Below are positions 285 to 50,125 of a stretch of 64,000 nt of DNA, in pieces (position 1 is the first letter of the stretch; every line of letters begins with the position of its first letter). Source of the stretch: Bacillus sp. BA3 (GTDB lineage: Bacteria; Bacillota; Bacilli; Bacillales; DSM-1321); contig PIZR01000012.1 in the NCBI GenBank assembly GCA_002835675.1, positions 1 through 64,000 on the forward strand. The letters run 5' to 3'. Below the pieces are notes generated by a model. It was not told where the DNA came from. It did no database searches and was given only the letters and a program-made list of their open reading frames with translations. Made by a program: the position numbers and the translations under genes.

Positions 285-310
285 ATGGAACTAAAGGGGC
301 AGGTTAGTTG
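285..310 (+). repeat. Interspersed hairpin element, copy 1 (right half only)
   Basis: Only the right-hand module is present: CTTATG followed by AACTAAA, the GGGGCAG loop and GTTAGTT. The canonical left and central hairpins are missing. Confidence 0.6.
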
Positions 311-363
311 AAGAATTATGTTTAACTATATAAAAGAAAAACAAACAACTAAGAGGTGATTGT

Positions 364-624
364 ATGAAATATACTTGTCCTTGCTGTGGATATAAAACAT
401 TAGATGAGGAACCTCCAGGAACGTATGATATTTGTGAAATCTGTTTTTGGGAAGATGATGGTTACCAATATGAACATCCAGATGAGGATGGTGCAAATAA
501 AATTTCTTTTAGAGAGTCACAACAAAACTTTATAAAATTTGGCGTTAGCGATTTAGATTTTTCGGAAAACGTAAGAAAACCAAATAATTCCGATATAAAG
601 GATCCAAATTGGAAACCGATATGA
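364..624 (+). CDS. CPCC family cysteine-rich protein
   Basis: This 86-residue protein starts at ATG after an AGAGGTGAT ribosome site. It has the signature of the cysteine-rich CPCC family: CPCCGYKTL near the N-terminus (C5, C7, C8) and a second pair in DICEICFWEDD (C24, C27). These cysteines probably bind zinc. The acidic DDGYQYEHPDEDGAN stretch that follows is also typical of the family, and the length is normal. Some family members sit in polymorphic toxin loci as possible immunity proteins, but no toxin gene is next to this copy, so function is unknown. It is monocistronic between two copies of the interspersed hairpin element. Confidence 0.85.
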   Translation: MKYTCPCCGYKTLDEEPPGTYDICEICFWEDDGYQYEHPDEDGANKISFRESQQNFIKFGVSDLDFSENVRKPNNSDIKDPNWKPI

Positions 625-643
625 GTTTATATAGGGAATTATT

Positions 644-722
644 AAACTAACGAGTGCATTAACTTAAGATTAGAGCTGTCTTTAAGGCAGCCTTTTCTTT
701 ATGGAACTAAAGGGCCGGATTG
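644..722 (+). repeat. Interspersed hairpin element, copy 2
   Basis: Central stem AGCTGTC / GGCAGCC with loop TTTAA and TTTTCTTT tail, flanked by a degenerate left module (AACTAACGAGTGCATTAA) and a right module (AACTAAAGGGCCGGATTG) in which pairing is poor. It lies just downstream of the CPCC gene and could act as its terminator. Confidence 0.7.
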
Positions 723-878
723 TGGAGGATTGGAAAATTTTGATTCTACAAAAAAATTGGGGGATTGGAAGAAGGAAAGCTATGTATAATTAGTGATGTA
801 AGTTTATGCTTTTTATGTAATAATTATTTTGTAGAGATGTAAAGTTACAATTCATACATAGTGAAGGTGGGGATCATA

Positions 879-1319
879 ATGGCAACGGGAACGCATACTG
901 TAGTAGTTCCAGTAGATGTACAAGCAGTTTGGGATTATGTCAGTGATCTCGAAAAATGGGCAACGACAGTACCAGCCTATAAAGAACATGAAATCATAAA
1001 TGACAAGCAATCTATTTGGACGTTTGAAGGTAGTGTGAAAGGTATTAAAAAAACAATACAAGCACAGGTAGATATTACCGAATGGAATGAACCTTCAAAT
1101 ATTAAGTTTGAATTAAAAGGTTTATCAGATAATTTTACAGGAAGCGGTCACTTTACTGCAGAAGATGTTAATGGTGAAACAATAATGACTTGTACGGTGG
1201 AAATACATGCAGGCGGATTATCTGGTGCGGTGTTAACACCAATTATTAAATGGGCTGTTCCAAAAGTAGCATCTCGTTTAACAGAATCTATCGCACGTAA
1301 AATTGCAGTATTCTCATAG
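879..1319 (+). CDS. SRPBCC family protein, CoxG-like
   Basis: The product is about 146 residues and has the START/SRPBCC helix-grip layout: an N-terminal strand and helix (VPVDVQAVWDYVSDLEKWA), a central run of beta strands, and a C-terminal amphipathic helix. The sequence resembles the CoxG (carbon monoxide dehydrogenase subunit G) branch, which in Bacillus usually occurs without any CO dehydrogenase and has no assigned role; it may bind a hydrophobic ligand. A GTG at 861 is in frame, but the GGTGGGG site at 867-873 is well placed for the ATG at 879, so I chose the latter. A terminator follows at 1436-1465. Confidence 0.8.
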   Translation: MATGTHTVVVPVDVQAVWDYVSDLEKWATTVPAYKEHEIINDKQSIWTFEGSVKGIKKTIQAQVDITEWNEPSNIKFELKGLSDNFTGSGHFTAEDVNGETIMTCTVEIHAGGLSGAVLTPIIKWAVPKVASRLTESIARKIAVFS

Positions 1320-1435
1320 TTTTCAAAGATTGAAAGCCAATTCATTTTGGAGATACCTTCTCTGAAGTATAGATGGTAACATTCTGAAGTGACCAATATA
1401 ATTATATCGAGAAATTTTATAATTAGCGGAAGGGG

Positions 1436-1465
1436 GGCTGTCCAAAAAGGATGGCCTCTTTTTTT
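1436..1465 (+). terminator. Rho-independent terminator of the CoxG-like gene
   Basis: GGCTGTCC, an AAAAA loop and GGATGGCC form an 8-bp stem with two wobble pairs, followed by TCTTTTTTT. Confidence 0.7.
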
Positions 1466-1490
1466 CAATATTCCAGAATCGCTTTTCTTA

Positions 1491-1574
1491 ATGAACTAAC
1501 ATGAGCGTTAGCTGAAGATCGAGCTGTCTTTAAGGCAGCTTTTTCTTTATGGAACTAACGGGGCAGGTTAGTTG
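1491..1574 (+). repeat. Interspersed hairpin element, copy 3 (near-complete reference copy)
   Basis: All three modules are present. The left hairpin is CTAAC / GTTAG around ATGAGC (1496-1511). The central hairpin is AGCTGTC / GGCAGCT with TTTTTC tail. The right hairpin is a perfect AACTAAC / GTTAGTT around GGGGCAG (1553-1573). It lies between the CoxG-like gene and the convergent spore protein gene. Confidence 0.85.
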
Positions 1575-1652
1575 AATAAGCGTAGTGTATTCCTAATGCG
1601 ACATAGCAAAATATTGTTTCTGTTTCTTTTTAAAATTTGTAAAATTATAAAT

Positions 1653-1676
1653 AGGGATAGTCCAATCACTATCCCT
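1653..1676 (-). terminator. Hairpin at the 3' end of the spore protein gene
   Basis: AGGGATAGT / ACTATCCCT (9 bp, 6-nt loop) lies 20 bp past the stop codon of the minus-strand SASP gene. On that strand it is followed by an AT-rich stretch rather than a clean T-run. Confidence 0.55.
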
Positions 1677-1696
1677 AACATTACATATGATTTCGA

Positions 1697-1900
1697 TTAA
1701 CGAGTTCTTCCGCCTAATTGTTGTTCAGCCATTTGCACTAAACGTTTTGTAATTTCTCCACCAACAGATCCGTTCGCACGGGATGTTGTATCAGCGCCAA
1801 GTGTAACACCGAATTCACTAGCGATTTCGTATTTCATTTGTTCTAGAGCTTGCTCTGCACCATTAACTACTAATTGATTACTGTTGTTATTTCTAGCCAT
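1697..1900 (-). CDS. Alpha/beta-type small acid-soluble spore protein
   Basis: This 67-residue protein is a standard alpha/beta-type SASP, which coats and protects DNA in the dormant spore and is degraded at germination. The germination protease site is visible as [10 protein letters not shown], where GPR cuts after the first Glu. The conserved C-terminal DNA-binding helix is present as [18 protein letters not shown], and length is normal. The start follows GGAGCTGAC. The gene stands alone, as such genes usually do, and should be transcribed by sigma-G in the forespore; I did not find a convincing sigma-G promoter by eye. This gene is the best single indicator that the host forms endospores. 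Confidence 0.95.
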
Positions 1901-2000
1901 GTTGTCAGCTCCTATGAATGTAATGTGTTGCTAGTCATAGGTTTTGATATTGTTAAGAGTTATATGCATAGAATTTAAAATAAATCAAGGCAGTGATTAA

Positions 2001-2176
2001 GTGAAATTAAACTCATCTGTAGCTCTAGAAGGGAAGAGTTACAGGAAAACATTGAAGCCACCGGCAAGGTAAGGGTTTCAGAAGCTCCGAAAAGCAAATA
2101 ATCTGATGTAGAGGTTTTCTCCCCCTATTGCACAGTTTATGTCATAGCCGAAGTTAAGGTAAAGAAAAGGCGATAA
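2001..2176 (+). pseudogene. Decayed small ORF with an in-frame stop
   Basis: From about 2006 one frame reads protein-like text for 56 codons, including REELQENIEATGKVRVSEAP and, after a TAA at 2099-2101, SDVEVFSPYCTVYVIAEVKV, ending at TAA 2174-2176. A GTG at 2001 in another frame gives VKLNSSVALEGKS, which could be the displaced N-terminus. The text on both sides of the stop looks like real coding sequence, so I read it as a dead gene with a nonsense codon and a frameshift. I do not recognise the family. Confidence 0.4.
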
Positions 2177-2189
2177 TAAACGGGATATT

Positions 2190-2226
2190 AATTAATAATC
2201 AGAGCTGTTCTTAGACGGCTTTTTAT
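2190..2226 (+). terminator. Terminator-like hairpin, possible distant relative of the element
   Basis: AGCTGT / ACGGCT around a short TCTTAG loop is followed by TTTTTATTTTT. Its position after the decayed ORF and its AGCTGT start resemble the central hairpin of the interspersed element, but both flanking modules are absent. The remaining 2230-2500 has short GC-rich inverted stretches (GCCGGC twice, GGTGTT/AACACC) without a structure I can name. Confidence 0.4.
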
Positions 2227-2502
2227 TTTTGAATAGAAGGTACAGATTAGTGTGAGGAGGCACTGCCTTCTGTTAACAACGGAAGGCCTCCCTTATGCCG
2301 GCGGTCTCGGTTAGAATCAAAGGCTAAGAAGTTATAACATTAATTTGGAGCCGGTGTTTTAGCACTGATGATAACACCTGTAACGATTGAATAAATAGAC
2401 TATTGTCTTTTATAAATCTAAAACGGGCGCCGGCAATTTCGTATAAAAAATTCACCATGAAGTATTATATGAAGATAATATCTATTTCGAAGGAGGAAAA
2501 AA

Positions 2503-2763
2503 TTGAGCGATCATATTAAAAGCGAATTATCATTATTCACCGAGTACCTTGTATCATTATTATTCACAGCTTGCCTTGCGGTTTTTCTCACAAAGTTCAC
2601 TGATTCATTTCCATGGCTTTCCTTTATAGGTGTTTCAATAGGTCTTGCCCTCATGATCTCCTGTTGGGAACAAAAGAAAAACCAATGGTCTCTTTTTATT
2701 ACAAGCTTATTATTGAACACTGTTGTTTGGTCTATTGTTTTGAATTGGTCCTCATTTTTTTAA
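2503..2763 (+). CDS. Small hypothetical membrane protein
   Basis: An 86-residue protein begins with TTG directly after a strong AAGGAGGAAAAAA site. Hydropathy suggests three membrane helices: roughly residues 12-30, 38-52 and 62-84, with a short charged loop (CWEQKKNQWS). I do not recognise the family. It is the only gene on its transcript; a shared bidirectional terminator separates it from the convergent cytochrome gene. Confidence 0.65.
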   Translation: MSDHIKSELSLFTEYLVSLLFTACLAVFLTKFTDSFPWLSFIGVSIGLALMISCWEQKKNQWSLFITSLLLNTVVWSIVLNWSSFF

Positions 2764-2786
2764 ATATATTTATTCCTGAAAAATAC

Positions 2787-2825
2787 AAAACAGCCTGATC
2801 CATATTGATTGGATTTGGCTGTTTT
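2787..2825. terminator. Bidirectional terminator between convergent genes
   Basis: AAAACAGCC / GGCTGTTTT with an internal ATCC / GGAT pairing lies between the small membrane gene and the cytochrome c gene, with T-rich or A-rich flanks suited to both strands. Confidence 0.7.
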
Positions 2826-2872
2826 ATTTTAAGTTTAATTAAGGCCATCACTATTTTTGAAAAATTGCCTAC

Positions 2873-3223
2873 TCACTTTTTCTGTGATAACCACTCTGCC
2901 ACGATTGCAGCTTCTTCATTTGAAATAACGCCTGCTGGCATCCCATTTTTACCATTATTAATAATATCCTCTATATCACTTTGTGAATATTTTGAACCAA
3001 TTTTATTTAAAGCTGGACCAGCTCCTCCTTGTAAATTTTCTCCGTGACAAGATATACAACTATTACTCACAATTTCTTCAGGATTACCAGCTGAAGTATC
3101 CTGTGTTCCCCCATTTGAATCTGGGGAAGGTGAGGGTTGATGGCCTCTGTAAAAAAACAGTAAAAATATTAAACATCCTGCAAGAACAATACTGACTCCA
3201 GAAGTAAACCAAATTTTTTTCAT
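2873..3223 (-). CDS. Membrane-anchored small c-type cytochrome
   Basis: The start is the ATG at 3223 after GGAGGTATTT, giving 116 residues. The N-terminus is a membrane anchor (MKKIWFTSGVSIVLAGCLIF); LAGC also fits a lipobox, so it could be a lipoprotein like Bacillus cytochrome c551, or a helix-anchored protein like c550. A Ser/Pro/Gly-rich linker follows. The haem site is CISCH (C56, C59, H60) and the probable axial methionine is M95 in NGMPAG, giving one class I haem domain outside the membrane. It is divergent from tatA-tatC and a GMC dehydrogenase, and flavin dehydrogenases of that type often pass electrons to a cytochrome c, so a functional link is plausible. Confidence 0.9.
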   Translation of the reverse strand: MKKIWFTSGVSIVLAGCLIFLLFFYRGHQPSPSPDSNGGTQDTSAGNPEEIVSNSCISCHGENLQGGAGPALNKIGSKYSQSDIEDIINNGKNGMPAGVISNEEAAIVAEWLSQKK

Positions 3224-3577
3224 AAATACCTCCGTATTTAATGTAGATTGGAGTAAAAATCTTTTTTGATAAAAGAACAAAGAAAGTTTCTAATTTATCT
3301 TCTAATAGAATCCGTGGAAAATACATAAACCTCTAAGTTTTTATTTACTCTTCCAAAGTACTTAAGCATTATTATTTAATTCATATCTTTCCCCAAAGTT
3401 ATTTTTGCATGAATACATTTTTACAAAAAGGTGAGGTTCTTTTAATCTAATCTCGGGTACCAAAAATTCCTTTATAACATTTCCAACTTTCTGCATGGTA
3501 TTTAATAAAAGTTAATACATATGGTCGAATTACTGAAAAACTAATATGAACTATTAGAAAGATGAGAAATTTGAATA

Positions 3578-3606
3578 TTGAACTGTAAACAAAAGGCATG
3601 TATAAA
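3578..3606 (+). promoter_or_regulatory. Candidate sigma-A promoter for the tat operon
   Basis: TTGAAC (3578-3583) and TATAAA (3601-3606) are separated by 17 bp in the 540-bp intergenic region upstream of tatA. This is a motif match only. The rest of 3281-3760 is AT-rich and holds nothing else I can name. Confidence 0.4.
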
Positions 3607-3763
3607 TATAAGCTAGGTATAAAATTGAGCAGTTTTGTGAATATATTATAAGGAATAAAAAAGGCAACTTACCACCCTTTGGTGTAAATAATAACGTTTA
3701 CTGGAAAGGTTACAAACGGTTTTTAGTAAATGTAACTGATGTTTTTTATGGAGGATTGACGTG

Positions 3764-3982
3764 ATGTTTCAGAATATTGGGATTCCAGGCTTGGTCGTAA
3801 TTCTTATCATTGCACTTGTTATTTTCGGTCCGAAAAAACTACCTGAAATTGGTCGGGCATTTGGACGGACATTAACGGAATTCAAGGGTGCAACAAATGG
3901 ATTAATTTCTGATGAGGATAAACAGGAAGAGAAAAAACATGAGTTATCGACTGCTGAAAAGAAGATGCTGGATAAACAGTAG
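3764..3982 (+). CDS. tatA: Sec-independent protein translocase subunit TatA
   Basis: This 72-residue protein has the TatA layout: a short N-terminal transmembrane helix ([15 protein letters not shown]), the [14 protein letters not shown] hinge and amphipathic helix, then a charged tail. The FGPKKLP motif is diagnostic. TatA oligomers form the membrane passage for folded proteins carrying twin-arginine signals. GGAGG at 3750-3754 serves either GTG 3761 or ATG 3764; the usual family start ([10 protein letters not shown]) favours 3764. The gene is followed by tatC, and then by a probable Tat substrate, a pairing resembling the phoD-tatAd-tatCd locus of Bacillus subtilis. Confidence 0.95.
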
Positions 3983-4036
3983 AGTCCATAGTGGATATGA
4001 AGGTGGGCATTTTTCATATAACAGGAGGAGGCCACC

Positions 4037-4759
4037 ATGGAAAACAAAGATTCACATCTCATTGAACATCTTGATGAACTTCGGCAACGAATGATTAAAA
4101 CTTTGATAGCCTTCGTTATCTTTTTCGTTGGTGCGTTAGTTTTTGTTGAAGACATCTATAGTTGGGTAATTAGTGATCTTGGGAGGGATTTAGCTATCCT
4201 AGGACCAAGTGATATTTTATGGGTGTATATGATTATTTCGTGTGTTTTTGCCATTGCAGCTACGATTCCTGTAGTTGCCTATCAGACTTGGAAATTTATA
4301 GCACCTGCCCTGACAAAAGAAGAACGCAAAGTGACTCTAAGGTTTATCCCAGGATTATTCATTTTGTTTATTATCGGAATCTCTTTTGGATACTTTTTGT
4401 TATTTCCCATTGTGCTAGGATTTTTAACAAATATGTCAGCGGGGCAGTTTGAAATGATGTTTACAGCAGATAAATATTTTCGGTTCATGATTAATTTGAT
4501 TTTACCGTTTGGCATTCTATTTGAAATGCCATTGGTAGTGATGTTTTTAACAAGATTAGGAATTCTCAATCCAGAAAGGTTGGCAAAAACGAGGAAGGTA
4601 TCCTATTTTTTTCTGGTAGTCGTATCTATTATGATTACCCCTCCAGATTTCATATCGGATATGCTGGTCATTATTCCTTTACTGGTTCTTTACGAATTGA
4701 GTGTCACTATATCCAGGATTGTGTATAAGAAAAAGATAGTAAGCGATGCATTAATGTGA
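4037..4759 (+). CDS. tatC: Sec-independent protein translocase subunit TatC
   Basis: TatC is the polytopic receptor for twin-arginine signal peptides. This 240-residue protein has the conserved N-terminal HLIEHLDELRQRM motif, six membrane helices, and the late segment ITPPDFISDMLVIIPLLVLYELS that is highly conserved in TatC. Length is normal. The start follows AGGAGGAGGCCACC. It is 54 bp downstream of tatA and 43 bp upstream of the Tat-signal-bearing dehydrogenase subunit, so the three are probably cotranscribed. A TatA plus TatC pair without TatB is the normal Gram-positive system. Confidence 0.95.
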   Translation: MENKDSHLIEHLDELRQRMIKTLIAFVIFFVGALVFVEDIYSWVISDLGRDLAILGPSDILWVYMIISCVFAIAATIPVVAYQTWKFIAPALTKEERKVTLRFIPGLFILFIIGISFGYFLLFPIVLGFLTNMSAGQFEMMFTADKYFRFMINLILPFGILFEMPLVVMFLTRLGILNPERLAKTRKVSYFFLVVVSIMITPPDFISDMLVIIPLLVLYELSVTISRIVYKKKIVSDALM

Positions 4760-4802
4760 TAAGGGAATTCACACCTTTTTTTTAAAAATAGGAGGGTTTT
4801 TT

Positions 4803-5573
4803 TTGTCGGATAAAGAGAAAAGTCAAATTGAAAAACAAGGTAGTACGAGACGTACCTTTTTAAAGAACTCTGGATTAGCTGTTGGAGGCCTCATTTTAGG
4901 TGGAGCAGTTGGAAGCATGTTTGATAGAAATTCGGAAAGTGGTGTGACAACAGAACGGAAAGGTCAAACTCAAACTCAAGCTAATAATCCGAATGAAGCC
5001 CTGATGTTTTTTTATCCAGAAGAATATCAGACGACAGCGGCAGCGGCAGAACGTATTTTCCCAAAGGACGATCTTGGACCAGGGGCTATGGAATTAAATG
5101 CGGCGATTTATATTGACCATCAACTTAACAGTGGGTGGGGAGTAAATGAAAAGGATTATAAACTTGGACCCTATTATAAGCCAGAAATAACACAAGGTGA
5201 ACAGAATAAGCTTTACCGAAAAGATTTGTTTCGGCTAGGCTTAAAAGAATTGAATACATATAGTAACAAAAACTATAAAAAGAAATTTACAGAATTAGAG
5301 GCTAATGAACAGGATGAAGTTTTAGCTGCGTTTGAGAAAGGTAAAGCAAGTTCACTTTCTGGTGCATCTTCTTCGGCATTTTTCCAATTGTTAAGAACTT
5401 TGACCATTGAAGGTGTTTATGCCGACCCATTGTACGGAGGAAATAAGGAAATGCTAGGCTGGCAGATGCGAAAGTATCCTGGTTCTCGAATGAGTTATAC
5501 AAAAGAAATCCAAAGTAAAGAATTTTTAAAGCTAGATCCAAATAGCCTTCAAAGTCATATGAAACATTCATGA
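4803..5573 (+). CDS. Gluconate 2-dehydrogenase subunit 3 family protein with Tat signal
   Basis: A 256-residue protein starting with TTG after AGGAGGG. Residues 14-40 form a clear twin-arginine signal: STRRTFLKN (R16, R17) followed by a glycine-rich hydrophobic core (LAVGGLILGGAVGSMF). The mature part, with YQTTAAAAERIFPKDDLGPG and YADPLYGGNKEMLGW, matches the gluconate 2-dehydrogenase subunit 3 family, the small subunit of membrane flavin dehydrogenases. It overlaps no neighbour and ends 18 bp before the large subunit. Because the flavin subunit has no signal peptide, this subunit probably carries it through the Tat pore as a folded complex; that is inference from known family behaviour. Confidence 0.9.
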   Translation: MSDKEKSQIEKQGSTRRTFLKNSGLAVGGLILGGAVGSMFDRNSESGVTTERKGQTQTQANNPNEALMFFYPEEYQTTAAAAERIFPKDDLGPGAMELNAAIYIDHQLNSGWGVNEKDYKLGPYYKPEITQGEQNKLYRKDLFRLGLKELNTYSNKNYKKKFTELEANEQDEVLAAFEKGKASSLSGASSSAFFQLLRTLTIEGVYADPLYGGNKEMLGWQMRKYPGSRMSYTKEIQSKEFLKLDPNSLQSHMKHS

Positions 5574-5591
5574 TAGAAAGGGATGAAAAAC

Positions 5592-7307: not shown

Positions 7308-7341
7308 GACAGCCTTTTCTTTGACCTAAAAATAACATGAC

Positions 7342-10084: not shown

Positions 10085-10172
10085 TAATGAACTAACGGGT
10101 GCTTTAGCTGAAGATCGGAGCTGTCTTTAAGGCAGCTCTTTCTTTATCCAATTAACGGTGCAGGTTAGTTTG
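10085..10172 (+). repeat. Interspersed hairpin element, copy 4
   Basis: Left module AACTAACGGGTGCTTTAGCTG, central hairpin AGCTGTC / GGCAGCT with TCTTTCTTT tail, right module AATTAACGGTGCAGGTTAGTT. It follows the broken DUF4181 gene. Confidence 0.8.
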
Positions 10173-10672: not shown

Positions 10673-10693
10673 GGTTTGTACTTTATTTTTATT

Positions 10694-10790
10694 GCATAGT
10701 TTGTGTCAACTCTACACTAAGCCTTTTAGAACTAATGGTGCTTTACTTCAATAAGGCAAGCCTTTTTCTTATAGAACTATCGGGGGAGAG
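10694..10790 (+). repeat. Interspersed hairpin element, copy 5 (divergent)
   Basis: Carries the longer left flank seen in other copies (AGTTTGTGTCAACTCTACAC), then AACTAATGGTGCTTTACTTC, a shortened central hairpin (AAGGC / GCCTT followed by TTTCTT) and a decayed right module (AACTATCGGGGGAGAGG). Confidence 0.6.
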
Positions 10791-15207: not shown

Positions 15208-15270
15208 GCAGAGTTTGTGTCACTCTACAATAAGTCTTAATGAGCAAACGGGGCAGGATAGTTCAATAAG
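15208..15270 (+). repeat. Interspersed hairpin element, copy 6 (central part deleted)
   Basis: The long left flank (CAGAGTTTGTGTCACTCTAC, AATAAGTCTTAATGA) joins directly to the right module (CAAACGGGGCAGGATAGTTC). The left and central hairpins are missing, consistent with an internal deletion. Confidence 0.6.
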
Positions 15271-17540: not shown

Positions 17541-17640
17541 GTCTGTGAAATATTGTACTTAAACTATAGGGTGCTTTAGTTCATTAACAGGGGTTGTTTC
17601 GGCAGCCTTTTTCTTATGGCACTAACGGGGCAGGTTAGTT
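17541..17640 (+). repeat. Interspersed hairpin element, copy 7 (second central-stem type)
   Basis: Left flank GTGAAATATTGTACTTAAAC, then a different central hairpin (GGTTG / CAGCC around TTTCGG, with TTTTTC tail) and an intact right hairpin ACTAAC / GTTAGT around GGGGCAG. Confidence 0.75.
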
Positions 17641-17730
17641 CTATAATATGTATAATATTGGATATAAATATTTAGAGGGGGATTATTATGTTAAAATTAG
17701 GTAACTAACAATATAAAAAGGAGTGATCTT

Positions 17731-18021
17731 ATGGAACGTAGGAAATACACTCGCTTATCTTTTTTCTGTTTAGTTCTTTGTATCATTGCATTCATCGCTT
17801 TATTAGTCATCGGTACATTAGGAAATGGCAGTGTTTTAGGTCCATTGTTCGCTTGGATTGCGATGTTATCCCCCATATTCGGAATAATCCTAGCGATCCT
17901 AGGAGAAAAAGGTAATATGAAGTTGGTAGCCATTACTGGAAATATAGCCGTTTTATGTACGATATCTTTGTTCGTTGGTGCTATGAGTTTTTATGATGTT
18001 TTAGATAGAATACTTGCTTAA
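17731..18021 (+). CDS. Small membrane protein of unknown function
   Basis: A 96-residue protein starting at ATG after AAAAGGAGTG. Three hydrophobic helices are predicted (about residues 9-28, 34-55 and 62-84) with a short basic start (MERRKYTR). No family recognised with confidence. A 6-codon ORF with a GAGGGGG site (17688-17708) lies just upstream and may be a leader or chance. A terminator follows. Confidence 0.7.
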   Translation: MERRKYTRLSFFCLVLCIIAFIALLVIGTLGNGSVLGPLFAWIAMLSPIFGIILAILGEKGNMKLVAITGNIAVLCTISLFVGAMSFYDVLDRILA

Positions 18022-18065: not shown

Positions 18066-18181
18066 ACAGTTTGTGTCAACTCTGCGATAAGTCTTAAAGA
18101 ACTAACAGGTGCTTTAGCTGAAGATCGGAGCTGTCTTTAAGGCAGCTTTTCTTTATGGAACTATCGGGGCAGTTTAGTTGT
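18066..18181 (+). repeat. Interspersed hairpin element, copy 8 (with long left flank)
   Basis: AGTTTGTGTCAACTCTGCGA flank, left module AACTAACAGGTGCTTTAGCT, central AGCTGTC / GGCAGCT with TTTTC tail, right module AACTATCGGGGCAGTTTAGTT. It lies between convergent genes. Confidence 0.8.
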
Positions 18182-18224
18182 ATAAGAAATTTCTATAAGT
18201 CCTAATTTATCTATTTTTCCTGTT

Positions 18225-20003: not shown

Positions 20004-20094
20004 GTTGAACTAACAGGTGCGTTAGCTGAAGATCGGAGCTGTCTTTAAGGCAGCTTTTTCTTAATGAACTAAAGGGGCAGGATAGTTCAACAAG
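20004..20094 (+). repeat. Interspersed hairpin element, copy 9
   Basis: Left hairpin CTAAC / GTTAG around AGGTGC, central AGCTGTC / GGCAGCT with TTTTTC tail, right module AACTAAAGGGGCAGGATAGTT. Both neighbouring intact genes are on the minus strand, yet the element keeps the plus orientation. Confidence 0.82.
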
Positions 20095-23170: not shown

Positions 23171-23240
23171 TTAAACTATAGGGGGCTTGAATTGAACAAC
23201 GAAGGTAGCTGCGGCACCTCTTTTTCTTATTCAAAAGTTA
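23171..23240 (+). repeat. Interspersed hairpin element, copy 10a (second type, divergent)
   Basis: AAACTATAGGGGGCTTGAATT followed by a GGTAGCTGCGGCACC central stem and TCTTTTTCTT. The right module is lost. It lies directly before copy 10b. Confidence 0.55.
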
Positions 23241-23345
23241 GTTTGTGAAGGATTGTACTTAAACTAACGGGTGCGTTAGCTGAAGATCGGAGCTGTCTTT
23301 AAGGCAGCTCTTTTCTTATGGAACTAAAGGGGCAGTTTAGTTGAA
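23241..23345 (+). repeat. Interspersed hairpin element, copy 10b (complete, covarying right stem)
   Basis: Left hairpin CTAAC / GTTAG around GGGTGC, central AGCTGTC / GGCAGCT with TCTTTTC tail, and a perfect right hairpin AACTAAA / TTTAGTT around GGGGCAG (23322-23342). Compared with copy 3 both sides of the closing pair changed (C-G to A-T). Confidence 0.88.
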
Positions 23346-23393
23346 AAAGGAATATTAATTCTATTGGGTTATGGAAAGAACAAAATATAATAA

Positions 23394-24383: not shown

Positions 24384-24488
24384 GATTGTGAAGTAATGTA
24401 CTTAAACTAACGGGTGCTTTAGTTCATTAACAGGGGTTGTTTCGGCTGCCTTTTTCTTATGGAACTAACGGGGCAGGTTAGTTCAAGA
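24384..24488 (+). repeat. Interspersed hairpin element, copy 11 (second type)
   Basis: Left flank TTGTGAAGTAATGTACTTAA, left module AACTAACGGGTGCTTTAG, central GGTTG-type stem with TTTTTC tail, and a perfect right hairpin AACTAAC / GTTAGTT around GGGGCAG (24463-24483). Confidence 0.8.
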
Positions 24489-24603
24489 AGGTATTAGTAA
24501 ATCTTTTGACGAAAATATAAAGAGCTTAGTAAGAAGCGCTTAAAATACCATTTAATAATAAACAGGAAAAAACTAACTGCTAAAAACTTTAGGGGGGGAA
24601 ATA

Positions 24604-25161
24604 TTGAAACAAACATTACTGATAATCGATGCTCAACAGGAATTAATAGAAGGTAATAAAGAAGAACAAGGAGTCTTTGAGAAAGAAAAAATCGTTAATA
24701 ACATTAATACTGTAATTGAAAAAGCGATAAATGAAAGTATCCCCGTTGTTTTTATAAGAGATTTAGATGTTTCAAATGGAGAAGGACCTGGATTCCAGAT
24801 ACACAGGGATATTAAAATACCATCAACTGCTATCATATTTGATAAAGCTGCCACAAATTCATTTTATGGAACTCCATTACACGAACATTTAAGTAAAAAC
24901 AATGTAGACCATATTGTAATAATGGGATGTAAGACGGAACATTGTATTGATTCAGCTGTTAGAACAGCAACAATCAATCATTTTGATGTAACATTAGTTG
25001 GTGATGGACATTCCACTTCTGACTCCAAAAACTTATCTGCAAAACAAATAATCCTTCATCACAATGAAACCCTTCACGGTCACTATAATGTAGACAATTT
25101 TTCACTTGTTAGAAATTCTAATGAAGAACTGTTTAAACCTATTCACAATAATTACCGATAA
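24604..25161 (+). CDS. Isochorismatase-family cysteine hydrolase
   Basis: A 185-residue enzyme starting at TTG after GGGGGG. The catalytic triad of the family is visible: D9 in LLIIDAQQEL, K81 in FDKAATNSFYG, and C114 in MGCKTEHCIDSAV. This fold covers nicotinamidases, isochorismatases and N-carbamoyl amidases; the length and GFQIHRDI stretch fit the small cysteine hydrolase branch, but the substrate is unknown. It is monocistronic and is followed directly by hairpin element copy 12, which may end its transcript. Confidence 0.85.
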   Translation: MKQTLLIIDAQQELIEGNKEEQGVFEKEKIVNNINTVIEKAINESIPVVFIRDLDVSNGEGPGFQIHRDIKIPSTAIIFDKAATNSFYGTPLHEHLSKNNVDHIVIMGCKTEHCIDSAVRTATINHFDVTLVGDGHSTSDSKNLSAKQIILHHNETLHGHYNVDNFSLVRNSNEELFKPIHNNYR

Positions 25162-25170
25162 TAATCATCT

Positions 25171-25249
25171 TCAATTAACGAATGCGTTAGCCGAAGATCG
25201 GAGCTGTCTTTAAGGCAGCTTTTTTTTATGCAACTAAAGGGGGAGGTAA
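25171..25249 (+). repeat. Interspersed hairpin element, copy 12
   Basis: AATTAACGAATGCGTTAGCC left module (AACG / CGTT pairing), central AGCTGTC / GGCAGCT with eight T residues, degenerate right module CAACTAAAGGGGGAGG. Confidence 0.75.
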
Positions 25250-25534: not shown

Positions 25535-25600
25535 TCAACAAACAGGTGCTTACTTAAAATTACCAGGAGCTGATCAACAGCTCCTTTTCTTATGGGGGTA
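25535..25600 (+). repeat. Interspersed hairpin element, copy 13 (divergent central stem)
   Basis: CAACAAACAGGTGCTTACTT followed by a perfect GGAGCTG / CAGCTCC stem around ATCAA and TTTTC. The right module is lost. The stem sequence is unlike both main types but keeps full pairing. Confidence 0.55.
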
Positions 25601-35063: not shown

Positions 35064-35170
35064 TTGTGAAATATTGTACATAAACTAACGGGTGCGTTAG
35101 CTGAAGATCGGAGCTGTCTTTAAGGCAGCTTTTCCTTATGGAACTATCGGGGGCAGGTTTGTTCAATAAG
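35064..35170 (+). repeat. Interspersed hairpin element, copy 14
   Basis: Left flank TTGTGAAATATTGTACATAA, left hairpin CTAAC / GTTAG around GGGTGC, central AGCTGTC / GGCAGCT with TTTTCC tail, right module AACTATCGGGGGCAGGTTTG. Confidence 0.82.
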
Positions 35171-35226: not shown

Positions 35227-35562
35227 ATGTGTGGAATCAATTTCATTTTAGCTAACACTTATAAAGAAACGTATAAGGAAGAAACATATGTAGAATTTGA
35301 AGAGGGAATACATTCATATCTTTTAAGCAAGGAAAAGGACTCTAATAACGAGTTATGTTTACTTCTAAATCTTAATATTTATGGTGAAACAATATTGTAT
35401 AGAGACGAGATTAATGAATTAATAGGTATATGTAATGGCGTAATTAATAAATACACAGGGGAGGACAAAGAACAAAAAGTTAGACGTTTTGCTAAAGAAT
35501 TAAAATTTTTTTGCATAGAAGCGTTAGAACGAAAAAAACATATATTTGCCATAGGTGATTAG
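35227..35562 (+). CDS. Hypothetical soluble protein
   Basis: A 111-residue protein starting at ATG after GGAAGGGTGAAGTAA. It is alpha/beta in appearance, mildly acidic, without signal peptide or membrane segment. Segments such as CLLLNLNIYGETILYRDEIN and FAKELKFFCIEALERKKHIF suggest a small folded domain. I do not recognise the family. It is isolated between two hairpin elements (copies 14 and 15), like several other orphan genes in this window. Confidence 0.65.
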   Translation: MCGINFILANTYKETYKEETYVEFEEGIHSYLLSKEKDSNNELCLLLNLNIYGETILYRDEINELIGICNGVINKYTGEDKEQKVRRFAKELKFFCIEALERKKHIFAIGD

Positions 35563-35570: not shown

Positions 35571-35650
35571 AGTCTTAAACTTGGTGCGTTAATTCAAGAT
35601 CGGAGCTGTCTTTAAGGCAGCTGTTTCTTATGGAACTAACGGTTTAATAA
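35571..35650 (+). repeat. Interspersed hairpin element, copy 15
   Basis: AAGTCTTAAACTTGGTGCGTTAA left part, central AGCTGTC / GGCAGCT, then GTTTCTTATGGAACTAACGG; the right hairpin is truncated after the first arm. Confidence 0.7.
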
Positions 35651-44714: not shown

Positions 44715-44775
44715 ATAGGCAAGGGTTTAAATGAGGATGCTGCGGCACCCTTTTTTTGTTGATCTAAAGGGTCAT
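44715..44775 (+). repeat. Interspersed hairpin element, copy 17 (divergent)
   Basis: GGATGCTGCGGCACCC central part with seven T residues, then GATCTAAAGGGTCATTAA as a decayed right module. Related to copies 10a and 18. Confidence 0.5.
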
Positions 44776-44785
44776 TAATATTAAA

Positions 44786-44820: not shown

Positions 44821-44861
44821 GAAAAGAATGATGTAAACGGATACATTTTCAGATTAAATAG

Positions 44862-46223
44862 TCAAGATGTAGCTATTTCATGGTCATCTTTTTCTATCGC
44901 CAGTTTAGTCTTTTCCATTGGTTCAATGATCGTAAAGAGGAGGATAAAGGTCATTAAAGAGCTTACTGATAAAAACATGAATACCATATTCCAATTAAAA
45001 GAATCTAAGATCAAACCTACTACAAACGGAGCAAATGCACCACCTAACGATCCTCCAGTATTAACAATTGAAGCGGCAAGGGGCAATTTTTCTTTGGATG
45101 TAATCCCCATAGGATACGCTAAAAACGCTGAATATCCCAAATTCAACAAAATACCCGTAATAAGAAGAACGATACTTAAAAACATTGGGTCATTTGGGGC
45201 GTACAACAATGCATACATGCTGAAGATTGTCGATGCTGCAGTCACTATCATAAGAGGTTTTCGACGTTTGTTAAAGATGTTATCCGAAACCCAACCGCCA
45301 ATTAGATTACCTAACATGGCCCCTATCCATGGAGAGGAGGCAACAAATCCCATCTCCATAATGGAATACTTTTTGACGTTAACCAAATAAGTAGGTATCC
45401 ATGTCATAATGGCATAAACAATACCGACCATGAAAAAGTACCCCAACGTACATCCCCATATATTCCATGAAAGAAAAACCTTCCTATTTGTATCAAGGAA
45501 ATCTACTTTCTTGGTACGAATAATTTTGTCTACCCATTTCATCGAATATTTTTTCTTATTTCCTTTGATTTTCTCATCGATAGTCGAAGGCTTTTCTAAT
45601 TTGATATAATCTATTTCCTCTTTTGAGCAATGTGGACTTTCTTCCGGATTATCCTTTACTAGCAGGAGCCAAAATAAAGCGAAGATAAAGCCCGGAATGG
45701 CAAATATATAGAAAACTTCACGCCAGCCGAAAGCATAAATGATGTAAGCACACAGCGGAGGAACTATGGCAGGAGCGAACTTGATTGCCGACATATAAAT
45801 TCCTGTCGCAGTTCCCTTTTCCTTTCCAGGGAACCAACGGTTAATCGTGGAAATAATTCCGACTGGAAGTGGTCCCTCTGCAACACCTAGTAATATTCTG
45901 CCAATTTTAAGTTGAAGAGCAGAACTAGCCGTTCCGATAAATAATGTTGCAGCCGAAGTAACAATCATAGAGAAGGTGAATATTTTTCGTGTCCCAAACT
46001 TACTATAGATGAACCCAGCTGGAATCTGGATAATTGCATATCCGATGTAAAAAAGACTAGCCATTGCACCAATATCAGTGTTACTCAATTCAAATTCTTT
46101 TTGAAAATATGGAATGACTACACTGATATTTGCCCTGTCTGCACCAGCGATCATATAAGTTAGAAAAATTAATAACATGACTACCCAACGAAATCGAGTC
46201 TTTTTTTGTAATGAATTCTGCAT
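44862..46223 (-). CDS. MFS transporter, anion:cation symporter (ACS) family
   Basis: From ATG 46223 the protein is 453 residues with twelve helices. YMIAGADRANISVVIPYFQK after helix 1 and SKFGTRKIFTFSMIV in loop 2-3 identify the ACS family, which imports organic anions such as hexonates, tartrate, glucarate or phthalate. It is the third gene of a minus-strand group with an RraA-like aldolase and a 2-hydroxyacid dehydrogenase, so it probably brings in their substrate. An upstream in-frame ATG (46244) overlaps the GGAGGGG ribosome site. A 258-bp gap separates it from the RraA gene, so it may have its own promoter. Confidence 0.9.
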   Translation of the reverse strand: MQNSLQKKTRFRWVVMLLIFLTYMIAGADRANISVVIPYFQKEFELSNTDIGAMASLFYIGYAIIQIPAGFIYSKFGTRKIFTFSMIVTSAATLFIGTASSALQLKIGRILLGVAEGPLPVGIISTINRWFPGKEKGTATGIYMSAIKFAPAIVPPLCAYIIYAFGWREVFYIFAIPGFIFALFWLLLVKDNPEESPHCSKEEIDYIKLEKPSTIDEKIKGNKKKYSMKWVDKIIRTKKVDFLDTNRKVFLSWNIWGCTLGYFFMVGIVYAIMTWIPTYLVNVKKYSIMEMGFVASSPWIGAMLGNLIGGWVSDNIFNKRRKPLMIVTAASTIFSMYALLYAPNDPMFLSIVLLITGILLNLGYSAFLAYPMGITSKEKLPLAASIVNTGGSLGGAFAPFVVGLILDSFNWNMVFMFLSVSSLMTFILLFTIIEPMEKTKLAIEKDDHEIATS

Positions 46224-46481
46224 TAGATTTCTTCCCCTCCTCATAAATAATTTGGCACAGTAACGATTTCCTTCTTTTGTAATTTAAATTGTTAGTAAGT
46301 ATAGTGTATAAAGGAATGGAGAACTCCGGTCTAATTTCCAAACACCATTATAAATGTCTGGAAAATTCCAGAGTAATCCACAGAAGAGGGTTACCTCCGT
46401 ATCTACCTATATAACAACGCACAACTTAAAGAGGTACCGTGAGAACATGCTAAGTTACAAGAACTTTAACATACACCATAG

Positions 46482-47201
46482 TTAGTCTCGATTACCTATA
46501 ATAGATTTTTTTACTTTGGATGATTTATTTTTAATTTCACAGCCCCGGTCTTGAAGACTTTTATCAACCCAAGTTCGATCCCACGTCATATTCATGATAT
46601 CATCCATTTCCTGGTGTTCCCTGAGGAACTTAGCTTTCGATTTTTCTATTAACTCATCCGTATCTTGCGGGTTAATGACCACAATACCATCATCATCGCC
46701 GACTACAATGTCTCCAGGATGAACCACTACTCCGCCACAAGAAATAGGAACATTAATTTCTCCAGGTCCGTCTTTATATGGACCCCGTGGATTGACACCT
46801 GCTGCGTAGATTGGGATATCCATCTTTCTTAAGGCTCCGACATCACGAATGGCACCATCGATTATAAACCCGCCTAATCCTCTTTTTTGAGCCCACAATA
46901 CCATTAGTTCGCCCATGATTGCATTTGTTAAATCCCCCTGAGCATCAACAACTAATATATCGCCGGGTTGAGCAAGATCAAGTGCTTTATGAAGCATGAG
47001 GTTGTCACCGGGACGTGTTTTAATTGTAAAAGCAGCCCCAAGTAAGGGCTTATCATTAATTGGACGAATTTTAGGATTCATGCAAAACATACGGTTCATA
47101 TTATCAGCAATTACAGATACGGGTAACCCTTTAAACTCGTTTACTGCTTCTTTAGTTGGACGATTAATGTTTGAATACACACGCATTCCAATATTAGACA
47201 T
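46482..47201 (-). CDS. RraA family protein, probable 4-hydroxy-4-methyl-2-oxoglutarate aldolase type
   Basis: From ATG 47201, after GAGGACCTACATT, the product is 239 residues. It has the RraA/HMG-aldolase core: VSVIADNMNR, GAAFTIKTRPGDNLMLHKAL, GDILVVDAQGD and GGFIIDGAIRDVGAL with the metal/substrate residues (D in DGAIRD). This fold includes class II HMG/CHA aldolases that cleave 4-carboxy-4-hydroxy-2-oxoacids to pyruvate and a keto acid, as well as RNase E inhibitors; in a bacillus with catabolic neighbours the aldolase role is more likely. The C-terminal extension (MTWDRTWVDKSLQDRG) is longer than in RraA. Confidence 0.85.
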   Translation of the reverse strand: MSNIGMRVYSNINRPTKEAVNEFKGLPVSVIADNMNRMFCMNPKIRPINDKPLLGAAFTIKTRPGDNLMLHKALDLAQPGDILVVDAQGDLTNAIMGELMVLWAQKRGLGGFIIDGAIRDVGALRKMDIPIYAAGVNPRGPYKDGPGEINVPISCGGVVVHPGDIVVGDDDGIVVINPQDTDELIEKSKAKFLREHQEMDDIMNMTWDRTWVDKSLQDRGCEIKNKSSKVKKSIIGNRD

Positions 47202-47243
47202 AATGTAGGTCCTCTTTTCTATTTTTACATTCAATTTATAGAG

Positions 47244-48221
47244 TTAAACTGATGCTGAAGTCAATTTCACTAAATTATCAGGCATGTTCCCATCTTCTAC
47301 TTTTCTTATATTTTCAAAGGATAAGCGCAGTACAGTTTCCAACACATCCCTAGTCCCCCCTGCAATATGAGGAGTAGCAAGTATATTATCAAGTTTTAAT
47401 AATGGATTATCTGAATTTATGGGTTCAGATGACCAGGTATCAATGGCTGCGCCAAGTAAACGATTACATTTTAATGCTTCGGCAAGTGATTTTTCATCAA
47501 TGATATTACCTCGGGCTACATTAACTAAAATTGCTGAAGACTTCATGAGTTTCAATTCCTTTTCACCAATCAAGTTCCTTGTGGCTGGTATTAAAGGAAT
47601 ATGGAGGCTTATAATATCTGACTGTGATAATAAATCATTAAAAGTTACATAAGTTAACCCTAATTTTTTCTCCTCTTCAATTGATAATCTATTCACATCA
47701 TAATAAACAACGTTAGTTCCAAAAGCCTTCGATAATGCTGCAACTTTTTTTCCTATGTTTCCTATACCGATTATCCCGTGGATTTTACCGTTCACTTCGA
47801 ACATTGATGGGCGGTATTCCCACATTTTCCATTCACCACTTTTTGTTACTCGATCTAAGAAATGAAGTTTTCTGTACAGGCTTATAATCATGCCGATGGT
47901 CAATTCGACAACACTGTTTGAATTTGCTCCCGGTGTACTGGCTACATGGATTCCAAATTCACTAGCAGCATTTAAATCAATATTATCAACACCGCTTCCA
48001 GTTTTTTGAATCAATTTAACATTGGGTGCTTTTTCTAATAACTCTCTCGTAATAGGATAAGATGCTGTAATTAAATAGTTTGCTTCATGTAATGCTTGCT
48101 CTTTTTTTACATCATCCAAGTCAATCCAGTATTTAACCTCCATATCCAAACTTTTGAATGTATTTATTATTTCATGTGTTGCTGTGAATACTTTTTCAAA
48201 ATAAATAACTTTACAACTCAA
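47244..48221 (-). CDS. NAD-dependent D-2-hydroxyacid dehydrogenase
   Basis: The likely start is TTG 48221, six to seven bases after GGAGGAA, giving 325 residues. It has the D-isomer hydroxyacid dehydrogenase pattern: NAD-binding GIIGIGNIGKKVAAL, catalytic Arg region ILVNVARGNIIDEKSLAEAL, and the late catalytic His in ATPHIAGGT. Such enzymes interconvert 2-hydroxy acids and 2-oxo acids (phosphoglycerate, glyoxylate and others). It is first in the minus-strand catabolic operon and is divergent from a LysR regulator, 127 bp apart, the normal arrangement for LysR control. Confidence 0.9.
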   Translation of the reverse strand: MSCKVIYFEKVFTATHEIINTFKSLDMEVKYWIDLDDVKKEQALHEANYLITASYPITRELLEKAPNVKLIQKTGSGVDNIDLNAASEFGIHVASTPGANSNSVVELTIGMIISLYRKLHFLDRVTKSGEWKMWEYRPSMFEVNGKIHGIIGIGNIGKKVAALSKAFGTNVVYYDVNRLSIEEEKKLGLTYVTFNDLLSQSDIISLHIPLIPATRNLIGEKELKLMKSSAILVNVARGNIIDEKSLAEALKCNRLLGAAIDTWSSEPINSDNPLLKLDNILATPHIAGGTRDVLETVLRLSFENIRKVEDGNMPDNLVKLTSASV

Positions 48222-48348
48222 GATACATTCCTCCAATTCAATTAGACAAAATAATTAATTAACTTTATATTAAATATAGAAAATGAGATTGTAAAACGAA
48301 TTAATTAGCTATTTAATAACATAAATATTGCTATTTGGAGGCAGAATA

Positions 48349-49227
48349 ATGGATTTTCATTCTATTGATACCTTTCTCGCAGTCGTTCGAACAAAAACCA
48401 TTAGCGGTGCAGCAGAAGAATTACATTTAGCGCAAACTACCGTAAGTCAACGAATAAAGGTAATAGAAAAAGAAATTGGGGTTCAATTAATTGAACGCGG
48501 GAAAGGAATAAAACAAATCATTTTAACTCCTCTGGGTGAGGAATTTTATAAATTAGCGAAAGAATGGAGTCGTTTAGGACAAGAAGCGAAGCTATTAAAA
48601 ACGCAAGGCCCACAATTACCCTTGATTGTTGGTGGTGTTGATAGTGTTAATACATTTGTTTTACCAAAAGTCTTTAAAAAACTAAGTAACCATCATCCTC
48701 CAATTAAACTTCAAATCCGAACCTTACATTCCGATAATCTATACTCTGAAGTTGAAAATAGACATATTGATGTGGCCTATTCCCTTAGAAAAAGAGTCCA
48801 TCCAAATGTAAATGTTAAAAAGTGCTTTACATCACCTATGGTTGTTCTTCAAACTTCAGATATAAGTTGTTATATTTCGGAAAAGCTCCATCCTAAAGAA
48901 TTAGATTCTGATTACGAACTATTCATGCCGTGGGGAGTTGAATATCAATCTTGGCATTCTTATTGGTGGGATCCTTTATCGATTTCACGTATAAAACTAG
49001 ACAGTACTCATTTGCTTCTACATCTACTTCAAGATCCATTACAGTGGGCTATAGTTCCTAAATGGATAGCTGATGAAGCAATTAAACGTGGAAGTTACAA
49101 AATTTATGAACTTACAGATTCACCCCCGGATTATACAGTTTATGAACTTACTCATATAAAACAAACAACGCTTAAGCAAAAGGCTATAGAAACCATTGAT
49201 CACTACTTTCAGGAAGAGTTCTATTAA
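48349..49227 (+). CDS. LysR family transcriptional regulator
   Basis: ATG 48349, after TTGGAGGCAGAATA, starts a 292-residue LysR protein. The N-terminal winged HTH is clear (DTFLAVVRTKTISGAAEELH, then TTVSQRIKVIEKEIG) followed by the effector-binding domain (LPLIVGGVDSVNTFVLPKVF). It is divergent from the hydroxyacid dehydrogenase/RraA/MFS genes and probably activates them when the substrate is present. The AT-rich intergenic region contains repeated AATTAATTA stretches but no operator I can define. Confidence 0.92.
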   Translation: MDFHSIDTFLAVVRTKTISGAAEELHLAQTTVSQRIKVIEKEIGVQLIERGKGIKQIILTPLGEEFYKLAKEWSRLGQEAKLLKTQGPQLPLIVGGVDSVNTFVLPKVFKKLSNHHPPIKLQIRTLHSDNLYSEVENRHIDVAYSLRKRVHPNVNVKKCFTSPMVVLQTSDISCYISEKLHPKELDSDYELFMPWGVEYQSWHSYWWDPLSISRIKLDSTHLLLHLLQDPLQWAIVPKWIADEAIKRGSYKIYELTDSPPDYTVYELTHIKQTTLKQKAIETIDHYFQEEFY

Positions 49228-49249
49228 ACGTTCCTATCACTACTTGTGG

Positions 49250-49345
49250 TGGTGTCTACAAGTCTTAAAGGTGCTTTACTTCAATAAGGAAGGTTGCTGC
49301 GGCAGCCTTTTTTTGTGGAGCTAAAGGGGCAATTTAGCTGAAGAG
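49250..49345 (+). repeat. Interspersed hairpin element, copy 18 (second type, covarying stems)
   Basis: GTCTTAAAGGTGCTTTACTTC, then central GGTTGC / GCAGCC stem with seven T residues, and a perfect right hairpin AGCTAAA / TTTAGCT around GGGGCAA (49319-49339). Two base pairs differ from copy 3 with pairing kept. Confidence 0.85.
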
Positions 49346-49426
49346 TAGTGACATATAAAGGTATTGTCCTATTTACATAGAATATTTTAAGAGAATAGCA
49401 TGTAAAAAAAAAATTGGGGGACATAT

Positions 49427-50071
49427 ATGGACATTTGTTTTATTGGTGGCGGAAATCACACGGATAATGAATTAGGTGAAGTGTTCCTGGAACTTTCAAA
49501 AATGATTAAACGTGATGCTAAGATTTTAATTATCCCTTTTGCAACCGACAATTCCAGGTATGAAAGTTGGATGGCAAGTATAAAACAAGCCTTTTCAATC
49601 ATGGAGAATGTAAGTATTGAATTATTAAACGAAGACCTTTCAGACAAAGAAATGAAAAAGTCTATAAAAGAACATGATATTCTTTACTTTATTGGTGGAA
49701 AGCCAGAAAGGTTAATCCATGTTATAGAAGAAAAAGGACTTGTCCCAATTATCAAAGACTTTCAAGGTTTAATCATCGGATATAGTGCGGGTTCATTAGC
49801 CTTCTGTAATGATTGCATAATAACAAAAGATAAAGACTACCCAGTAACGGTAGTGATCAAGGGCTTAGGATTAGTTGGGTTTAGCGTTGAGGTCCATTAC
49901 GAGGATAATATAGATGGAGAATTAATTCCCCTTTCAAATGAACGAAAGATATATGCTATACCAAATGGAAGTGCGATTTTCTCCAAGAACGGGGAACTAT
50001 ATAAAGGTATAAATGATATCTATTCGTTTCAAAATATGAAAAAGGAAAAAGTGAATTCCAAAGTCTTATAG
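49427..50071 (+). CDS. Peptidase E / S51-type glutamine amidotransferase-like protein
   Basis: A 214-residue protein starting after TTGGGGGACATAT. It has the S51 fold: CFIGGGNHTDN at the start, ILYFIGGKPERLI in the middle, and the nucleophile elbow IGYSAGSLAFC with catalytic S120. Members are aspartyl dipeptidases (PepE) or related acyl-hydrolases; in Bacillus they are usually annotated as type 1 glutamine amidotransferase-like. Specificity unknown. Monocistronic, placed between two hairpin elements. Confidence 0.87.
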   Translation: MDICFIGGGNHTDNELGEVFLELSKMIKRDAKILIIPFATDNSRYESWMASIKQAFSIMENVSIELLNEDLSDKEMKKSIKEHDILYFIGGKPERLIHVIEEKGLVPIIKDFQGLIIGYSAGSLAFCNDCIITKDKDYPVTVVIKGLGLVGFSVEVHYEDNIDGELIPLSNERKIYAIPNGSAIFSKNGELYKGINDIYSFQNMKKEKVNSKVL

Positions 50072-50125
50072 AACTGGCAGGCGCTTTATCCCAATAAGCC
50101 GCGGCAGCATTTTTCATATGCGGGA
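50067..50125 (+). repeat. Interspersed hairpin element, copy 19 (degenerate, last in the window)
   Basis: TATAGAACTGGCAGGCGCTTTATC followed by AATAAGCCGCGGCAGC and ATTTTTC. The central stem no longer pairs well and the right module is lost. No further copy was seen to 64,000. Confidence 0.45.

Follow-up and report, generated by a model that had tools for sequence, protein, structure and literature searches.

Cassettes in integrons are uniformly oriented, mostly single-gene units that lie between palindromic recombination sites and depend on a tyrosine recombinase, IntI. The integron site attC travels with the gene upstream of it, through a single crossover in its 1R box. Such systems are very seldom reported in Firmicutes, where the IntegronFinder 2.0 report gives one complete integron and a few clusters of attC sites lacking an integron integrase (CALINs; PMC9024848). 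In the plasmid dif (pdif) modules of Acinetobacter, Xer-family recombination uses short core sites with a 6-bp spacer and joins alternating kinds of module (PMC13141974). Here we describe a family of three-hairpin intergenic elements in a stretch of DNA from Bacillus sp. BA3 (the window), which comprises the first 64 kb of the 74-kb contig PIZR01000012.1 in a 5.59-Mb genome of the genus Peribacillus. From their sequence and arrangement, these elements are very likely the joints of a sedentary gene-cassette array, each consisting of two direct tyrosine-recombinase core sites around an intrinsic terminator. Soil relatives of Bacillus thus appear to possess an integron counterpart of their own.

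Each full element comprises a left site (L) with inverted arms around GGGTGC, a middle segment of ~62 nt carrying a terminator-like centre, and a right site (R) with inverted arms around GGGGCAG. An earlier note on the window had described this three-part design correctly, and had read the element as a structured RNA whose right stem showed compensatory changes. The central hairpin pairs in 95% of cells, versus 23% and 48% when slid by one column, and shows A-T/G-C exchanges. Of 170 distinct middle segments, 162 exceed the mean stability of their own mononucleotide shuffles. The L and R arms were compared over 222 near-full copies, which remained of 413 matches after those without the model ends had been removed; their pairing and mutual information stay at shuffle level in most of 25 column pairs. 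The few pairs with raised mutual information mostly fall below the shuffles in pairing; column pair 88-108 is the exception, pairing slightly above them (0.81 vs 0.79). By this measure the central terminator-like hairpin is the only selected stem among the three. The RNA reading therefore survives for the central hairpin, which resembles an intrinsic terminator and covaries, and fails for most of the rest: no helix-like covariation is seen in either outer stem, and right-stem cases of the AACTAAA/TTTAGTT type are combinations of independent arms. The G-rich loop, for which binding by a protein or RNA had been suggested, is better explained by GGGTGC and GGGGCAG acting as the spacers of two DNA recombination sites, because gene homology starts or stops there, because the motifs recur across Bacillales genera beside one recombinase family, and because array copies share one direction. 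The near-independence of the arms fits this assignment, since a crossover would fall in the spacer between them.

The element is present in 31 of 36 Peribacillus genomes, and of 17 plasmid records that match an element-bearing stretch of the window, 10 are Peribacillus. We surveyed 23 regions from six genomes at a threshold of E 1e-4 or better and obtained the 413 matches in 21 regions, 193 on the plus and 220 on the minus strand. Without exception, each region uses a single strand; weaker matches on the opposite strand overlap the main ones and are echoes of the palindromes. A complete genome of the same species as the window's (G024) holds 93 elements in 220 kb, all plus, and the genome G019 holds 74 in 140 kb, all minus. 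Neighbouring elements are spaced by a median of 906 bp (386 pairs). In 285 gaps of 250-2500 bp, counted in regions with at least five matches, the main open reading frame (ORF) runs along the element strand in 244 and against it in 31, and 10 gaps have no ORF; 200 of the 275 gaps with an ORF contain only one. None of the 413 element midpoints falls inside an ORF of 150 aa or more, even though such ORFs cover 51% of the sequence. Orientation also follows replication. With DnaA taken as the origin in six complete genomes and rows for insertion sequence (IS) copies left out, the direction of the replication fork is shared by 157 of 165 distinct listed elements. Of the eight exceptions, five are at 0.48 of the chromosome, close to where the terminus is expected, and three are single matches. 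The 70 main ORFs of the G024 array match 66 Pfam families, most of them once. Products among the 25 families listed include GNAT acetyltransferases, isochorismatases, hydrolases, phosphotransferase-fold proteins and several domains of unknown function; one of the 70 ORFs is an IS110 transposase.

Genes have been reshuffled at the elements. Comparison of the window genome's contigs with stretches of G024, G019 and a further genome, G022, yielded shared blocks with 204 ends, of which 68 lie inside an element (3% at random) and 106 within 100 bp of one (14% at random). Window 708-1579 recurs at two further places in the G024 array with 95% identity, and window 24450-25247 recurs there with 96% identity. 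The neighbours 708-1579 and 1615-2144 are separated in the G024 stretch, with the former at ~96 kb and again at 104 kb and the latter at 140 kb. From ~51 kb onward, the window and the G024 chromosome are colinear over all of the G024 stretch read. Among the 222 elements, 40 pairs are alike over the upstream 300 bp, 37 of them without downstream homology, and 25 are alike over the downstream 300 bp, 24 of them without upstream homology; one pair shares both flanks. A true empty site was found for none of the 222 within the regions compared, and an occupied orthologous site for five. One apparent empty site was rejected, as it matched the element's own neighbourhood.

Similarity within linked pairs places the joins at the two outer hairpins. 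When flank pairs were limited to at least 90% identity, 27 of the 37 upstream-linked and 16 of the 24 downstream-linked pairs remained. In the upstream-linked pairs, identity in the left arm of L is 0.92, versus 0.65 in random pairs, while the middle (0.70 vs 0.70) and the right arm of R (0.67 vs 0.67) are at background. Conversely, downstream-linked pairs reach 0.93 in the right arm of R, versus 0.67 in random pairs, and are at background in the left arm of R and every zone left of it. The sequence classes of the centres agree at chance level in linked pairs (0.56 vs 0.56). The pattern persists after removal of an IS110 family, with 21 upstream-linked and 14 downstream-linked pairs. Because pooled similarity to the upstream side ends at L and that to the downstream side begins at R, each outer hairpin would act as a recombination core site, and the pooled zones indicate that the ~62-nt terminator middle is exchanged separately from the genes.

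Within or beside the arrays of relatives lies a gene for a 279-aa tyrosine recombinase, intact or fragmentary in 21 of the 36 Peribacillus genomes. At five loci (L160, L162, L163, L164 and L165), its ORF sits between the left and right halves of an element, on the same strand, and the sequences beyond GGGTGC and beyond GGGGCAG are, by eye, unrelated among these loci. The copy at L165 is broken and that at L164 has one stop. The protein combines a Phage_integrase domain with an N-terminal SAM-like domain. It comes nearest to the NCBIfam models XerA, XerD and XerC without reaching the cut-off of any (for XerA, 219.5 at best vs 220), and its nearest solved structures in the PDB are XerD, a XerC-like protein and XerA. 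It shares this two-domain architecture with the Xer proteins and differs from them in these scores, XerA being missed narrowly, and in being only 29-33% identical to the genome's own Xer proteins. Against the integron integrase model TIGR02249 it scores 88-95 bits, with a cut-off of 265, and no IntI-type integrase exceeds that cut-off in any of the 36 Peribacillus genomes. The NCBI product name "site-specific tyrosine recombinase/integron integrase" carried by distant homologues comes from the XerA model and does not denote IntI. By these comparisons, the recombinase is Xer-like and not an integron integrase. Residues that we take to be catalytic are invariant in ten copies. Several copies of L160-L165 contain a third site-like sequence (AACTAACAGGTGTTATTG or near), placed after the terminator and before the region that precedes the recombinase ORF.

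The recombinase and its sites extend across the order. At E 1e-70 or better, the enzyme occurs in at least 54 of 299 sampled genomes and at least 32 of 116 genera, counts that are low because few candidates were scored per genome. Plasmids carry it at 45% identity or more in Peribacillus, Niallia, Sporosarcina, Cytobacillus, Metabacillus and a record labelled Arthrobacter citreus, some copies being broken. From a scan of named genomes that showed at least 484 relatives, 79 recombinase loci were kept. In the 75 loci outside the closest clade (L185-L188, which belong to one clade with the Peribacillus enzyme, were left out), 163 spacer-specific sites lie opposite in strand to the recombinase and 17 share its strand. 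Controls gave 8 sites in the reversed sequence and none in 26 XerC/XerD loci (91 kb vs 826 kb). Three or more opposite-strand sites occur in 24 of the 75 loci, and three or more same-strand sites in one. Integrons have an attI site adjacent to the integrase; here, 20 of the 79 loci have an R site 62-83 bp upstream of the recombinase gene and 22 have any R site within 400 bp, versus 7% for random placements; an L site lies 43-51 bp downstream in 10. We set aside 92 R-site pairs with alike upstream flanks as non-independent, since most of them look like surroundings of the recombinase gene (12 inspected). Among contigs of Gracilibacillus, Virgibacillus and Paucisalibacillus, segments of 418 to 2859 bp are ~98% identical; homology begins at an R site, with unrelated sequence upstream, and the longest segment includes the recombinase gene itself. 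On the NEB 577 plasmid (L181), the recombinase is surrounded by ~22 sites of left type and 13 of right type, alike in design and different in their letters. This record (CP053689, Arthrobacter citreus) is labelled as an actinobacterium; it has a Bacillales-type recombinase and Bacillales-type sites, and the label may be wrong.

Taken together, these features probably reflect a dedicated Bacillales cassette system, independent of IntI, in which a Xer-like recombinase acts on the double sites L and R and sorts gene and terminator units separately. Chromosomal and plasmid arrays would reach ~90 or more cassettes, genes would pass between genera, and cassettes would have their own terminators instead of a common promoter. 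A gene unit would begin with the right arm of an R and finish with the left arm of the L that follows, and a terminator unit would begin with the right arm of L and finish with the left arm of R; with boundaries inside L and R, both kinds of unit would be reassorted. Because tyrosine recombinases require spacers that match, L would recombine only with L, and R only with R; pdif recombination occurs between sites of identical or nearly identical spacer (PMC13141974). An L × L or R × R event between adjacent joints would release a circle with one gene unit and one terminator unit, and re-entry of the circle through the other site type would reassort the terminator, which fits a terminator that is independent of both flanking genes. 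The likely enzyme is the 279-aa recombinase, itself lying between an L and an R site. Arrays in genomes without it may have been moved by a plasmid-borne enzyme or by one since lost, and the terminator would insulate each cassette gene. If this proposal is true, the storage and trade of genes as cassettes arose from, or was rebuilt on, Xer recombination in another phylum, and integron finders based on IntI and attC would probably miss the resulting reservoir of accessory genes. Which sites recombine and which enzyme acts are both open to testing.

Several observations weigh against this proposal. The recombinase is absent from the window genome, G024 and G019, all three of them rich in elements. 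Roughly half of the ends of shared blocks have no recognised element close by. After removal of the IS110 family, the right arm of L shows a slight excess in upstream-linked pairs (0.74 vs 0.64, P 0.03). In the 11 upstream-linked pairs of the full set with both centres of class A, the left arm of R is raised as well (0.85 vs 0.75, P 0.03), which is what a few crossovers at R would be expected to give. Mapping breakpoints pair by pair by likelihood performed poorly: the support interval reaches a spacer in 11 of 27 upstream-linked and 10 of 16 downstream-linked pairs, which we attribute to indels in the flanks and to a model that treats columns as independent. Because this mapping is too noisy, our placement of the crossover sites draws on the pooled comparison together with individual unambiguous cases. 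Among the recombinase loci, 41 of 75 have fewer than two recognisable sites on either strand, and the pattern search finds both expected sites at their fixed positions in only 3 of 79.

With hundreds of copies bounded by inverted repeats, the elements resemble miniature inverted-repeat transposable elements (MITEs), and genes could have been shuffled by RecA-dependent homologous recombination between dispersed copies; the element-rich genomes without a recombinase and the slight residual linkage past the L spacer are in keeping with this. Crossovers anywhere in the element would, however, leave linkage decaying through the middle, whereas little of it persists beyond the two sites; the regions compared gave no true empty site for any of the 222 elements, and recombinase and sites co-occur across genera. 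We regard this explanation as improbable. The elements share with repetitive extragenic palindromic (REP) sequences, bacterial interspersed mosaic elements, bcr and MITE-like repeats their short palindromic form and many intergenic copies, and differ in the want of empty sites, in the exchange of genes at the copies and in the lack of a Y1 transposase in the genome. The last point tells heavily against mobilisation by a Y1 enzyme of the REP/RAYT or IS200/IS605 kind, and REP/RAYT was rejected because the window's genome has no PF01797 match. Mobilisation by an IS110 transposase fares as badly: IS110-type elements are found inside many copies, and they lie within the element like parasites, with its halves on both sides. 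Even with a strand polarity linked to replication that resembles single-strand transposition, mobilisation by either transposase is very hard to credit. The original reading as conserved terminator or regulatory RNAs draws on the central hairpin with its T-run, which is conserved and covaries. It is equally far-fetched as an account of the whole element, since the outer stems do not covary, the strand stays uniform even beside minus-strand genes, and the gene shuffling at the copies would be left without explanation.

If the array were a genuine integron with an overlooked or lost IntI (a CALIN), single-stranded attC sites would recombine by one crossover. The layout is the same, with two inverted box pairs, uniform orientation and mostly one gene per cassette. 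Most elements point with the replication fork, and by eye AACTAAC and GTTAGTT are each one letter off the attC boxes RYYYAAC and GTTRRRY (6/7 match). We rejected this reading on the TIGR02249 search, in which none of the 36 genomes of the genus exceeded the cut-off and the recombinase proved nearer to XerA and XerD. Nor does the middle segment travel with the upstream gene, following neither flank in the pooled test, and the arms lack helix-like covariation; we therefore hold a hidden integron to be quite unlikely. The Bacillales joints differ from integrons in their Xer-like enzyme, in having two crossover zones with a terminator unit that reassorts apart from the genes, and in a recombinase gene placed inside the array between L and R. 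With dif modules they would share Xer-family recombination at short core sites with matching spacers and alternating kinds of unit. In contrast to those modules, which use the host XerC/XerD and have inversely oriented ends, the joints are linked to a separate recombinase family, have two spacer types and include a terminator; all sites are direct within each region, without inverse sites or alternating C and D modules, and one chromosomal stretch holds 93 elements. The system proposed here would be integron-like in layout and dif-like in chemistry, but without some defining features of each. In the titles and abstract openings of open-access literature, subscription papers and preprints aside, we found no description of such arrays in Bacillales.

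Insertions of IS110 type recur within the elements, another likeness to integrons, whose attC sites are reported to be targeted by IS1111 relatives (PMC11187229). Among 12 element-bearing contigs with ends read, 11 have an IS110-type sequence at one or both ends, and a copy in another genome has IS110 Pfam domains. In many copies of the element the insertion lies at the same point, the T-run, where the assembly breaks, as at window 1-278 and at the ends of contigs C1, C2, C5, C10 and C11 of the window genome; the same holds at the further contig ends C15, C17, C18, C21 and C40. A guide RNA of the IS110-type element probably recognises the element. The half-copies at contig ends had suggested a long autonomous parent transposon, an idea that was dropped because these ends show the element interrupted at a single point by an IS110-type insertion. 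A second IS110-type element, which has an ORF of ~400 aa, terminates next to L in several elements and is 97-100% identical between species; it is located at ~4.22 and 4.31 Mb in G019 and on C40 and C5 of the window genome. A 1.6-kb repeat shared by the window genome and G019 at 97-100% was discarded as a case of recent cassette transfer, since, by its translation read by eye, it encodes an IS110-type protein; it is the family taken out of the pooled breakpoint test.

Within the window, the profile trained on copies from the window's genome gave 19 plus-strand matches at E 0.05 or better, versus none in 20 mononucleotide-shuffled windows and none in the reversed window, a count that is partly circular because window copies helped to train the profile. 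Four weak minus-strand matches (E 0.003-0.012) each overlap a plus-strand copy and are echoes of palindromes. Of the approximately 20 copies claimed in the earlier note, 18 of 20 positions were recovered; those at 36.0 and 50.1 kb were missed by the profile, and partial copies are visible there by eye. The profile added a copy at 2187-2251, previously overlooked. No Rfam covariance model matched the element at gathering score, in agreement with the note's statement that the design has no named counterpart, as far as Rfam is concerned.

Table 1. Elements, gene units and insertion in the window.
Position	Strand	Feature	Basis
1..278	+	End of IS110-type insertion sequence splitting an element	Contig-end comparison
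279..314	+	Right half (R site) of the split element, the 0.3-kb copy of the earlier note	Profile, E 2e-8
644..725	+	Element: L site, terminator, degenerate R site	Profile
1493..1579	+	Full element	Profile
2187..2251	+	Degenerate element	Profile, E 8e-5
10089..10170	+	Full element	Profile
10731..10788	+	Element, centre shortened	Profile
15235..15268	+	R site alone	Profile, E 9e-4
17561..17646	+	Full element, central class C	Profile
17731..18021	+	Single-gene unit (96 aa) flanked by two elements	
18100..18185	+	Full element, central class A, used as search query	Profile
20007..20093	+	Full element	Profile
23173..23234	+	Left part of element (L site, terminator)	Profile
23261..23347	+	Full element	Profile
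24404..24489	+	Full element, central class C	Profile
24604..25161	+	Single-gene unit (185 aa)	
25172..25247	+	Element, right arm of R decayed	Profile
25536..25595	+	Partial element (L site, terminator)	Profile
35082..35169	+	Full element	Profile
35227..35562	+	Single-gene unit (111 aa)	
35582..35642	+	Partial element	Profile
44739..44774	+	Weak remnant	Profile, E 0.005
49268..49343	+	Element close to array end	Profile

The arms themselves vary among copies. In some of them the left arm is prolonged by a conserved stretch (TTTGTGAA...TGTACTTAAAC), a long extension found in the window at ~17539, 23240, 24382 and 35075 and also at loci L182 and L218; it is common to several genera. A second extension (GTTTGTGTCAACTCT...ATAAGTCTTA) precedes the window copies at 10683, 15180 and 18053. 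These extensions are possibly alternative ends of gene units or accessory sites. At window ~715, at L182 and at ~24590 on C5 of the window genome, the right arm GTTAGTT is replaced by variants (GGGCCGGATTGTGGAG; GCAGCATTCCTGTAAT), which suggests further site types.

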